Part shown: in pieces, positions 13,742-22,046 of the stretch | Layout: every line of letters begins with the position of its first letter | How positions within the stretch are numbered: position 1 is the stretch's first letter | DNA from: an uncultured Lentisphaeria bacterium | GTDB taxonomy: Bacteria > Verrucomicrobiota > Lentisphaeria > Victivallales > UBA1829 | Assembly: GCA_949282305.1 (NCBI GenBank) | Contig: CASDPB010000119.1 | Coordinates: forward strand, 1-32,631 | Direction: 5' to 3' | Length of the DNA: 32,631 bases | Notes under the pieces: model-generated | The model's input: the letters and a program-made list of their open reading frames with translations, nothing else | The model's database searches: none | Told to the model about the DNA's origin: nothing | Translations under genes and position numbers: made by a program

Positions 13742-14986
13742 ATGAGCGCAGACATCGACTGGAAGAGCATTATTTACCGCGGAGTGGAATCCGACGAACT
13801 GGATTACAAAGCCGCACAGAACTGGCTGAAACTGTCACGTTCCGGCAAAGCCAAGTTCGTCCGTCATTGTCTCGCCATGGCAAACACCAAAGGCGGTTAT
13901 GTGGTAGTCGGCGTCGGAGAGGACGCCTCCGGGCAGCCCGCTGTTTTTACGGGACTCACGCCGGAAGAAGCCCAGTCCTTCGACCCGACCACCGTCGGCA
14001 GCTTCATCAACCGTTACGCGGATCCGCAGATTGATTTTACGCTGGAACGTCCCGTGGTGGACGGCAAACGTTACGTCGTGTTCGTAATCCGGCGCTTCAG
14101 CACTCTTCCGCATGTCTGTTCGGCAAGTACCGAACATGAACTTCTCCAGGGGGTATTCTACATCCGCACAGCCGACGCATCCAGCCGTCCGGCGTATCGT
14201 TCCAGCGAAATCCACGGAATCATTCAGCGGGCCATGCGGAACCAGCGGGAACAGCTCGGACGCATGATCCGCGGTCTGCTTTACGAAACACACAACACGG
14301 TTACTCCCGTCGGCGAGGGACAAAGTCATTTTGCGGAAGAGACGGCACACTCCCACAACTTTTTCATGAAGCGCAGAAAAAACATCCCGGGCTCCTGTTT
14401 CACAATTGAGCTTACCGTCACACCCGATGAATATGTCGCGGAACGTTTCACTTTAAGCGAACTGCGCCATCAGGCGGAAGCGGCATACGACTTCCATCCG
14501 AATTCCGCCTTCATCGCCCCGGGAGACCTGCGGGAAGCCTATGTGACGAACGTCTCCCTGCGCTTCGCCTCGGAGACAAGAGTCTGGCAGATTTACCAGT
14601 CGGGACTCTTTCACTTCATGGCGGCATATCCCCTGAGCGGTTCCGTGGAATACAGATTTCTCCTGGATTTCTTTGCCGACGCGATAAAGTTCACATCAGG
14701 ACTTTACGCCGGGCTGGGCTTTGACGTGCAGTCTCTCCAGATCGCTCTTTCGCTGAATCACGTGGAAAATCTGGAGCTCAGGATTGAGCGTCCCGCATCC
14801 GACCGCTATGTCTGCCGGATTCCGGAAATCACCGTTTATCAGACCCGAACCGCGGCAGACCTTGCCAGCGGCTACATTTCCCATGCGGCGGATCTTCTGC
14901 GTTCCGTATGTGAACGTTTCAATCTGCCGGAAAGCTATCACCGAAACGCTTTGCAAATGATGAAAAAGCATCTGAACCTTCTGTAA
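13742..14986 (+). CDS. AlbA_2 (Schlafen-type) domain protein
   Basis: A 414-residue protein. Residues 1-150 are an AlbA_2/Schlafen-type putative nucleic-acid-binding domain: ESDELDYKAAQ, KAKFVRHCLAMANTKGGYVVVGV, then FVIRRFSTLPHVC and GVFYIRTADASSRPA, with the usual acidic start and GG turn. Residues about 160-414 form an unrecognised alpha/beta region. Such proteins are described as DNA-binding regulators or RNA-cleaving Schlafen relatives; a function here cannot be assigned. It starts 7 bases after the AhpD-like gene with no separate promoter, suggesting a joint role or shared stress control. It converges on the FAD oxidoreductase gene. Confidence 0.75.
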   Translation: MSADIDWKSIIYRGVESDELDYKAAQNWLKLSRSGKAKFVRHCLAMANTKGGYVVVGVGEDASGQPAVFTGLTPEEAQSFDPTTVGSFINRYADPQIDFTLERPVVDGKRYVVFVIRRFSTLPHVCSASTEHELLQGVFYIRTADASSRPAYRSSEIHGIIQRAMRNQREQLGRMIRGLLYETHNTVTPVGEGQSHFAEETAHSHNFFMKRRKNIPGSCFTIELTVTPDEYVAERFTLSELRHQAEAAYDFHPNSAFIAPGDLREAYVTNVSLRFASETRVWQIYQSGLFHFMAAYPLSGSVEYRFLLDFFADAIKFTSGLYAGLGFDVQSLQIALSLNHVENLELRIERPASDRYVCRIPEITVYQTRTAADLASGYISHAADLLRSVCERFNLPESYHRNALQMMKKHLNLL

Positions 14987-19425: not shown

Positions 19426-20775
19426 ATGTTAAGACAAACACCGTGGTCATGGGTGCCGACATTGTATGTTGCGGAAGGCTTTCCCTATGCCGTAATCACA
19501 ACGCTGTCCGTCGTCATGTTCAAGACACTTGATTCCGGCATGAGCGATACCGCCATCGCGTTCTGGACCAGTCTGCTCGGATTGCCATGGGTGCTGAAAC
19601 CGTTCTGGGCGCCGTGCATTGATCTTTTCGGCAGAAAGCGCGGATGGATTCTTCTATGCCAGGCGCTTATGGGGCTCCTGTTTCTCCTGATGGCGTTCAC
19701 CGTTCCTCTTTCATCGGGAACGCCCCTGCTGATCCTGATGCTGTTCCCTGCGGCATTCGCTTCGTCCACACATGACGCGGCGGCGGACGGTTTTTACATC
19801 ATAGGGCTGGGAGAACATGAACAGGCTCTTTTTTCTGGCATCCGCAACACCTTTTACCGTCTGGCGCTCCTCTCGGCGCAGGGGGTGCTTCTCTCCATTG
19901 TCTTCACCCTGACGAAACACTGGAACATCCACGCACAGTGGTCTGCTTTCTTTTTTCTTTCCGGCGGACTGCTCATGCTTCTATTCTTTTTTCATCTGAC
20001 CGCCCTGCCCCGTCCGCTGACGGACCAGCCGCAGAAGCGTGACGCGCGAAAGTCTGTCGGCGGCTCTTTTCTGGAGTCGTTTTCCGCGTTTTTCCGCAAG
20101 AGACACATCATTCCCGCAATTCTATTCCTTCTCTTCTACCGTTTTGCCGAAGCCCAGCTGACAAAAGTCTCCGCCCTGTTCCTGGTCGATGAGCGGGCGC
20201 ACGGAGGAATCGCGCTGAATCCGGCGCAGTATGCGAACATCTACGGAACCGCCGGAATGCTGGCGCTCCTCGCGGGAGGAATCATCGGAGGAGTTCTGAT
20301 CGCCCGGCACGGACTGGGGAAACTGCTTCTGCCGATGGCTCTCATGCTCAACCTGCCGGATGCGGTCTATGTCTATCTTGCCTCCGCGCAACCCGGTTCC
20401 CCCTGGATCGTGAGCGCATGTGTCGTGCTGGAACAGTTCGGATACGGGTTCGGATTCACCGCCTATACCGTTTTCATGCTTCACTTTGCGGAGGACAGCG
20501 GCAGATTCCGCACCACGCATTATGCGTTCATGACGGGGATCATGGCGCTGAGCCTCATGCTTCCGGGCATGGTCTCGGGGGCAATACTGGAACGCATTCC
20601 AGGGTTCGCCTCCCTGTTCCCGGAATTGCTTTCCGGCACATGCGGCAATTATGAACTCTTCTTCCTCTGGATCATGCTCTGCACAGTCCCCGCCATCCTC
20701 ACGATCTATCTGATCCGCCCGTTTATCAAATACAATTTCGGAAAAAAGGACATTCCAGAAAGGAGCCGGCAATGA
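19426..20775 (+). CDS. AmpG-like MFS permease, candidate rhamnose transporter
   Basis: A 449-residue major-facilitator protein with about 12 hydrophobic segments. The start (TPWSWVPTLYVAEGFPYAV), the segment LLGLPWVLKPFWAPCIDLFGRKRGW and the AAFASSTHDAAADGFYI helix match the AmpG/PAT branch, in which the intracellular loop after TM2 and a D-containing helix 4 are conserved. AmpG itself imports anhydromuropeptides, but many relatives carry other sugars. Its stop overlaps the start of rhaA by four bases (ATGA), so the two are translationally coupled and the likely cargo is L-rhamnose or a rhamnose derivative; this is inference from context. ATG 19426 has AGGAAG upstream. Confidence 0.82.
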   Translation: MLRQTPWSWVPTLYVAEGFPYAVITTLSVVMFKTLDSGMSDTAIAFWTSLLGLPWVLKPFWAPCIDLFGRKRGWILLCQALMGLLFLLMAFTVPLSSGTPLLILMLFPAAFASSTHDAAADGFYIIGLGEHEQALFSGIRNTFYRLALLSAQGVLLSIVFTLTKHWNIHAQWSAFFFLSGGLLMLLFFFHLTALPRPLTDQPQKRDARKSVGGSFLESFSAFFRKRHIIPAILFLLFYRFAEAQLTKVSALFLVDERAHGGIALNPAQYANIYGTAGMLALLAGGIIGGVLIARHGLGKLLLPMALMLNLPDAVYVYLASAQPGSPWIVSACVVLEQFGYGFGFTAYTVFMLHFAEDSGRFRTTHYAFMTGIMALSLMLPGMVSGAILERIPGFASLFPELLSGTCGNYELFFLWIMLCTVPAILTIYLIRPFIKYNFGKKDIPERSRQ

Positions 20776-22046
20776 AGTATCCGAACTATTCCGACGCACT
20801 GATTGAAAAACGTTATGCCGATGCCAGGGAAATCTACGATGATTTCGGCATCAATACGGATACGGTGTTGCGAAAGCTCGACAAGATACGCATTTCCATG
20901 CACTGCTGGCAGGGAGATGACGCCCGCGGGTTTGAATGCGGAGAAAGCAAGCCCCCAACCGGCGGAATTCCCGCCGCAGGTTCCAAACCAGGCAGGGCGC
21001 GCAATGCGGACGAGCTCCGGCAGGATGCGGAAAAGGCTTTTTCCCTGATTCCCGGAAAGCACAGATTCAATCTCCATGCGGTTTATCTTGAAACCGGCGG
21101 CAAATCCGTCGACCGGGACGAGATTGAACCGGAACATTTCGCACGCTGGGCGGACTGGGCAAAGTCGCTCAGGATCCAGCTGGATTTCAATCCGACCTTT
21201 TTCTCCCACCCGAAATCCGCCTCCGGCTTCACCCTTTCCAGCCCGGACAAGGCTGTCCGCAAATTCTGGATCGAACATGCGAAACGCTGCCGCTTCGTTG
21301 CGGAATATTTCTCAAAAGAACTCAATTCCGTTGTCATCTGCAACACATGGATTCCCGACGGAGTCAGAGACTTTCCCGCCGACCGCTGGAATCCGCGTGA
21401 AATACTCATCGACTCTCTGGACGAAATTTTCCGCAAGAAATACGGCTCCAAAGTGAAAGACTCCGTGGAGGGAAAACTTTTCGGGAGCGGGGAATATGTC
21501 GTCGGCAGCAATGATTTCTGCCTGTCCTATGCACTCACACGCAAAAAACTCCTCTGCATGGACATGGGACACTGCCACCCCGCGGAGGCGGTTCACGACA
21601 AACTTTCCACAGTGCTGGCATTCATGCCCGAAGTCCTGCTGCATATCAGCCGTCAGATACGCCGGGATTCCGGTCATGTGGTGATTCTGAACGACGATCT
21701 GGAAAATCTCGCCAGAGAGATTGTCCGGGGACGTGCCATCGGGGAAGTCTATCTGGCGACGGATTTCCTCGACACGTCCGTCAACCGCATCGGCGCCTGG
21801 GTCATCGGCATGCGCAGCACACAGAAAGCGCTTCTGAATGCTCTGCTCGAACCGGCGGCGGTCTACAGATCGCTGGAGCGCGACGGGCGCAAAGCGGAAA
21901 TGCTGGCTCTGATGGAAGAGATGAAATCGCTTCCAGCCGGAGCGGTATGGGATTATTTCTGTCTGAAACACAACGTTCCGGTTTCCGTCGCATGGCTGAA
22001 CGATCTCCGCGCCTATGAACAGAGTGTCCTCTCCAAACGGAACTGA
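20772..22046 (+). CDS. rhaA: L-rhamnose isomerase (one metal ligand substituted)
   Basis: A 424-residue enzyme that interconverts L-rhamnose and L-rhamnulose in the cytoplasm. Family motifs are plain: RISMHCWQGDD, VEGKLFG with Glu233, GSNDFCLSYALT, MDMGHCHPAE (Asp264, His267), LLHISR (His291), DSGHVV and ATDFLDTSVNR (Asp331). As I recall the E. coli enzyme, its metal ligands are Glu234, Asp267, His270, His294, Asp302, Asp304 and Asp334; all align with an offset of three except Asp304, which is Gly301 here. The preceding Trp is Arg298. Both changes are single-base differences. ATG 20772 overlaps the permease stop, with AAAGGAG upstream. No rhaB, rhaD or rhamnose regulator is in the window. Confidence 0.93.
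   Translation: MKYPNYSDALIEKRYADAREIYDDFGINTDTVLRKLDKIRISMHCWQGDDARGFECGESKPPTGGIPAAGSKPGRARNADELRQDAEKAFSLIPGKHRFNLHAVYLETGGKSVDRDEIEPEHFARWADWAKSLRIQLDFNPTFFSHPKSASGFTLSSPDKAVRKFWIEHAKRCRFVAEYFSKELNSVVICNTWIPDGVRDFPADRWNPREILIDSLDEIFRKKYGSKVKDSVEGKLFGSGEYVVGSNDFCLSYALTRKKLLCMDMGHCHPAEAVHDKLSTVLAFMPEVLLHISRQIRRDSGHVVILNDDLENLAREIVRGRAIGEVYLATDFLDTSVNRIGAWVIGMRSTQKALLNALLEPAAVYRSLERDGRKAEMLALMEEMKSLPAGAVWDYFCLKHNVPVSVAWLNDLRAYEQSVLSKRN

Follow-up and report, generated by a model that had tools for sequence, protein, structure and literature searches.

L-Rhamnose isomerase (RhaA, EC 5.3.1.14) is represented by solved structures of three enzymes, from E. coli (1d8w, 1de5, 1de6), Bacillus halodurans (3p14, 3uu0) and Lactobacillus rhamnosus (8jq3-8jq6). 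The passages of the L. rhamnosus report that deal with the metal site describe a catalytic metal, Mn2, held by His264, Asp296, Asp298 and three waters (PMC10908623). The metal moves, according to the same passages, between this resting site of His, Asp, Asp and waters (occupancy 0.8) and a second one (occupancy 0.2). For the second position, Mn2B, in the complex with D-allulose, the groups named there as able to coordinate are His264, Asp296, waters and the substrate atoms O1 and O2, with Asp298 absent from the set (PMC10908623). The sugar-binding section of this source places Trp42, Ile47 and Phe330 around the C6 methyl group of L-rhamnose (PMC10908623). The D-xylose (glucose) isomerases, which share the fold superfamily, are portrayed in excerpts of two further papers as working by a two-metal hydride shift with a mobile M2 on Glu217, His220, Asp255 and Asp257 (PMC11194214, PMC8070043). 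Mobility of M2 is reviewed for both xylose and rhamnose isomerases in a section of the first of these (PMC11194214), and part of the second has xylitol binding to glucose isomerase release M2 (PMC8070043).

The window analysed here, a stretch of 32,631 nucleotides from an uncultured Lentisphaeria bacterium, carries a gene of the RhaA family with an open reading frame of 424 codons. The gene and its immediate upstream context are as follows.

19426..20775, + strand: upstream MFS transporter gene, for which the nearest NCBIfam model is the AmpG family
20761..20765, + strand: AGGAG, Shine-Dalgarno-like, 6 bases before the ATG, read from the sequence
20772..22046, + strand: RhaA-family gene with an open frame of 424 residues; the genome has three RhaA matches in all

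By its sequence and its predicted fold this protein is a member of the RhaA family. It matches PF06134 over residues 11-423 with 553.1 bits (cut-off 22), and its best sequence match among solved proteins is 1d8w (E 2.3e-137), a homology that runs the whole length. The AlphaFold2 model, for which the input alignment held 31 RhaA relatives and so partly imposed the fold, has a mean pLDDT of 89.1 and a pTM of 0.91, and confidently predicts an intact RhaA fold. It superposes on the ten entries of the three solved enzymes with Z scores of 52.4-54.0, the best being 8jq5 (Z 54.0, rmsd 1.7 over 417 residues), with 1de5 at Z 53.6. Among the matches listed, D-xylose isomerases give Z 24.4-25.6 and 11-16% identity. 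The two equivalog models disagree, however: the protein scores 583.4 bits against a cut-off of 572 for NF002203, but 551.7 bits against 584.95 for TIGR01748. Because the equivalog cut-offs split in this way, and because neither the Mn2 ligand set nor the C6 pocket is that of the solved enzymes, annotation as a functional L-rhamnose isomerase is not warranted. The protein is unusual within a family already known and represents no new kind of system.

The surroundings of the gene are not those of a rhamnose operon. Its ATG overlaps the stop codon of the MFS gene (ATGA), and its start signals, as read from the sequence, look intact. The MFS gene scores 170 bits against the AmpG-family model, below the cut-off of 350; it is present in all three congeners without rhaA beside it, and a search next to it in these three revealed no recognisable rhaA remnant. 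A U32 peptidase gene lies on the other flank, and several further neighbours match no family. The best rhamnulokinase candidate, on another contig (C89), reaches 437 bits, under the cut-off of 528, for a model that also matches in 11 of 14 control genomes and exceeds its cut-off in two of them. The operon test says little, however, since the scanned relatives from the same clade also lie outside rhamnose operons: 20 ORFs around eight clade loci, picked by a simple ORF script and perhaps in some cases on the wrong strand, included none of the rhamnose kinase or aldolase families. In the nearest relative (L134, genome G004), rhaA has beside it an iron-dependent alcohol dehydrogenase of unclear type, which scores 160 bits against the lactaldehyde reductase model, well below the cut-off of 523. 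Further upstream in the window, beyond the MFS region, a gene at 13742-14983 has a Schlafen/AlbA_2 domain (PF04326).

The residues that set the protein apart were placed in an alignment with 124 other RhaA rows (120 of all 125 rows being different sequences). They are listed here together with the metal ligands that are kept.

20922..20924, + strand: Ala51, where all 124 other rows have Val; aligned with L. rhamnosus Ile47 of the C6 pocket
21366..21368, + strand: Arg199, for Lys in 124 of 124
21468..21470, + strand: Glu233, ligand of the structural metal (Mn1), kept
21489..21494, + strand: site of the two-residue in-frame deletion, codons 240-241, in a loop of constant length
21561..21563, + strand: Asp264, Mn1 ligand, kept
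21570..21572, + strand: His267, Mn2 ligand, kept
21573..21575, + strand: Cys268, for Phe (104 rows) or Tyr (20 rows), adjoining the ligand His267
21582..21584, + strand: Ala271, for Thr in 124 of 124
21642..21644, + strand: His291, Mn1 ligand, kept
21663..21665, + strand: Arg298 (CGG), for Trp in 124 of 124
21666..21668, + strand: Asp299, Mn2 ligand, kept
21672..21674, + strand: Gly301 (GGT), replacing the catalytic-metal (Mn2) ligand Asp, which all 124 other rows have
21762..21764, + strand: Asp331, Mn1 ligand, kept
21768..21770, + strand: Leu333, where all 124 other rows have Phe; aligned with L. rhamnosus Phe330 of the C6 pocket

The four Mn1 ligands are thus all present, as are the substrate-contacting residues Lys235, His102, Trp193 and Phe144; in all this, and in two of the three Mn2 ligands, the protein agrees with the solved enzymes. 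It differs from them in Gly301, Arg298, Ala51, Leu333, K199R, T271A, Cys268 and the loop deletion. The codons at 21663-21674 read CGG GAT TCC GGT (R298, D299, S300, G301), and a preliminary description of this DNA had both the place and the content of the two motif changes right. Its interpretation of the metal site also holds: in an alignment with 8jq3, Gly301 falls opposite Asp298 of the L. rhamnosus enzyme, which the metal-site passages of the structural report give as a ligand of the catalytic metal (PMC10908623). The set of His, Asp and Asp is therefore reduced to His267 and Asp299, and as judged from the aligned sequences the protein is without a catalytic-metal ligand that is invariant in the sample examined. 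Cys268, new and next to His267, was considered as a candidate stand-in for the lost ligand. Gly at 301, which the same description had envisaged in relatives, occurs in 0 of the 124 aligned ones. Two other points in it need amending. The six kept ligands do not align with E. coli at a constant offset of three, for Glu233, which in the alignment corresponds to E. coli Glu234, has an offset of 1 and the other five an offset of 3, because of the two-residue in-frame deletion after Gly240. Nor is the rest of the protein intact, as had been supposed: four more invariant positions are changed, in addition to the deletion and Cys268.

From the order His..Asp-x-Asp, the counterpart of the lost residue in xylose isomerase would be Asp257. 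Xylose isomerases engineered at the equivalent Asp reportedly have activity on L-arabinose; the literature search found no support for this lead as a D256N or D256R enzyme (for D256N, among the matches listed). The search likewise found nothing on rhamnose isomerase in Lentisphaerae or on rhamnose isomerase as a pseudoenzyme.

How exceptional is this set of changes within the family? At 60 positions all 124 other rows agree, and the window protein departs from them at six (V51A, K199R, T271A, W298R, D301G and F333L); its stretch from Glu233 to Gly245, 15 residues long in each of those rows, has 13. In the C6 pocket Trp46 is kept, and Ala51 and Leu333 are changed. When each row is left out in turn, the protein breaks 7 of 61 strictly invariant columns and the C60 copy of RhaA from the same genome breaks 6 of 60, with 0-1 for the other 123 rows, in a count where rows with an identical twin cannot score. 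If the columns counted are those that 98% or more of the other rows share, which is kinder to rows with twins than the strict count, the breaks number 10 for the C60 copy, 9 for the window protein, 4 for L103, 3 for L056, 2 each for L077 and L065, and 0 or 1 for all remaining rows. The window protein belongs, in a quick tree, to a clade of 14 rows (SH-aLRT 100), in which its 13 sisters from Lentisphaerota (L004-L011, L033-L036, L113) are 58-63% identical to it; 12 of them break none of the columns conserved at 98% or more and one breaks a single column. All 13, unlike the window protein, keep W-D-S-D-H. The same motif stands in 39 of the 39 loci that cover it among 40 further loci fetched from relatives (L208 being the same gene as L028, and L203 lacking coverage of the motif).

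Could so many departures be an artefact? The contig comes from a fragmented assembly (132 contigs), but we consider it very improbable that the changes stem from faulty sequencing or assembly or from strains merged into a chimera. The preliminary description had listed sequence error among its explanations. The six substitutions and the 6-base deletion extend over 0.8 kb, with the deletion in frame and no frameshift. Of two control genes on the same contig, scored for invariance over 29 relatives (26 without the congeners), ruvB breaks 1 of 186 invariant positions (2 of 187 without congeners) and transketolase 0 of 179; both controls lie 13 kb or more upstream, a distance that would still allow a purely local fault. 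An odd and unexplained uniformity speaks for error: compared with the nearest clade codon, each of the six substitutions at invariant positions is an A-to-G or T-to-C change. Such A/T-to-G/C transitions make up 12 of the 29 private changes at codon positions 1 and 2, and the pattern may be chance plus GC drift.

With the changes taken as real, the genome offers a setting for them. It has two further RhaA matches, C27 (53% identical to the window protein), which is of the type found in the three congeners, and C60 (46%), and both have complete metal ligands, including all three for Mn2. The reading we prefer, at a probability of roughly one half (0.52), is that the constraint on the window gene, a redundant paralogue of RhaA, has been relaxed and that its rhamnose isomerase activity is gone or almost gone. 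It would be a real, lineage-specific and partly degenerate copy, in which the predicted fold and the Mn1 site are kept, the Mn2 site is short of one of its three protein ligands (Asp replaced by Gly301) and of the neighbouring Trp (now Arg298), and two residues of the C6-methyl pocket have acquired smaller side chains (Ala51 and Leu333). Purifying selection on this copy has probably been relaxed, because the genome holds two other RhaA genes with complete ligands. The protein is most likely still made and folded, yet inactive or nearly so on L-rhamnose, because at rest Mn2 would be held only by His267, Asp299 and water. Lacking the second Asp, the resting site would be weakened, so that we would expect Mn2 to be sparsely occupied and rhamnose isomerase activity to be low. 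Residual activity is possible, by analogy with the L. rhamnosus enzyme, because the second Asp is no ligand at the second Mn2 site. With a metal ligand and several family-invariant residues replaced, the enzyme activity of the window protein is probably gone or altered, whereas the other two copies keep their metal-binding residues. Should it prove inactive, it would exemplify a redundant metabolic enzyme whose active site goes while the frame is still open, and would warn that a protein of this kind can be labelled L-rhamnose isomerase when annotation relies on profile scores alone.

Several observations weigh against decay. The frame is fully open, the deletion preserves it and the start signals look intact; GC3 is 0.651, like that of seven other genes in the window (0.616-0.714); and the overall rate is raised only moderately. 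In neutral simulations an average of 58-60 substitutions (about 40 amino-acid changes) was needed to alter six of 60 invariant codons, and no stop codon arose in 19-21% of runs. Because only that share of neutral runs stays free of stops, some selection on the gene may persist; because as many as 19-21% do, the open frame is weak evidence that it does. Synonymous sites are probably saturated, since protein identity to the nearest relatives is no more than 63%. The end branch of the window gene, at 0.72, is the third longest of 125, and paths from the clade base are 0.78 for L011, 0.66 for L008 and 0.63 for L009. Private changes at codon positions 1 and 2 number 29 in the window gene, the highest of ten genes, 26 in L011 and 2-16 in the other eight. 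A strong acceleration of the whole gene was considered and rejected, since L011 is equally far from the clade base with nearly as many private changes; the excess in the window gene falls on invariant sites.

Loss of the ligand need not abolish activity, because in L. rhamnosus Mn2B is held by His264 and Asp296 without Asp298. An ordinary L-rhamnose isomerase would result if Asp301 served mainly to hold the resting metal, Mn2A, and a water took its place, with activity kept or modestly lowered. That Mn2B can be coordinated without Asp298, in the account given by the metal-site passages cited (PMC10908623), favours such an outcome, as do the passed NF002203 cut-off and the quality of the model and of its superposition on 8jq5. 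We nevertheless think it improbable, for the Asp is kept in every other RhaA row examined, five other invariant residues are changed as well, and the TIGR01748 score falls short. If the protein is active, it would allow a direct test of whether a mobile catalytic metal needs a third protein ligand, a point left open by the structures in which Mn2 moves.

Has the activity, then, been lost, or has it been changed? The main rival to decay is a functional shift, in which a selected isomerase or sugar-binding protein would serve another sugar by means of a roomier C6 pocket (Ala51, Leu333) together with a centre that is re-tuned or reduced to one metal; we rate this as rather unlikely. It accords with the open frame and its start signals, and with an excess that lies more on family-invariant sites than on the overall rate. 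The changes also lean towards the active site. Among the invariant positions, 3 of the 12 first-shell residues (those named in PMC10908623) are changed, compared with 3 of the remaining 48 (p 0.088); of the 18 positions that lie no more than four residues from a metal ligand 4 are changed, compared with 2 of the 42 elsewhere (p 0.060). Neither enrichment is significant, however, and the lean is suggestive. Against a shift, no substrate logic is apparent for K199R, T271A or the loop deletion, and the flanking genes are those for an MFS/AmpG-like protein and a U32 peptidase, with several neighbours of no family. As no relative has the changes, selection on a new state cannot be shown. An evolved isomerase paralogue with a rebuilt or single-metal centre, where Mn2 would be bound transiently by His267, Asp299 and the substrate while the opened C6 pocket takes another aldose, is a doubtful proposition. 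The preliminary description had offered altered substrate and early decay side by side; both stand, and the sequence evidence gathered cannot separate them.

A point in favour of a shift is that pocket diversification does occur in this group. The C60 copy (L003, G000:C60:24385-25617) and 17 of the 40 additional loci from relatives (L169-L183, L185 and L186) form a RhaA-like subfamily in which the sugar-recognising His97 of L. rhamnosus is replaced by Gln and Phe138 by Tyr (H102Q and F144Y in the numbering of the window protein). From these replacements the subfamily is probably a RhaA with another sugar specificity. It is a homologue from the same genome and order as the window protein, and its one member in the main alignment, L003, likewise breaks many invariant columns. 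Unlike the window protein, it keeps every metal ligand and W-D-S-D-H, and its pocket changes are common to many genomes whereas those of the window protein are found in no relative examined.

A DNA-pattern scan of 387 genomes of the phylum gave 26 matches in 23 genomes, among which the checkable ones include no RhaA with Gly or Ala at position 301: the 20 loci examined are not RhaA (best tblastn E 0.16), and the window itself accounts for one of the remaining six, which have no locus. The scan is a weak one, as in its wild-type form the pattern would recover only 19 of the 125 gene sequences already known, and 7 of the 44 that come from the order, in a count that takes the C27 gene twice. Split or interrupted genes were also seen among the fetched loci. 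One that looked split (L203, G048) was rejected as an instance of decay, since runs of N lie between its pieces. In another relative rhaA is divided between two frames and contains an in-frame TGA (L204, G052:C42:25400-27000); if the assembly is correct there, decay of rhaA copies may be under way elsewhere in the order. A further rhaA (L200, G018:C174) has a single in-frame TGA where its relatives have Trp, which is either real or an error.
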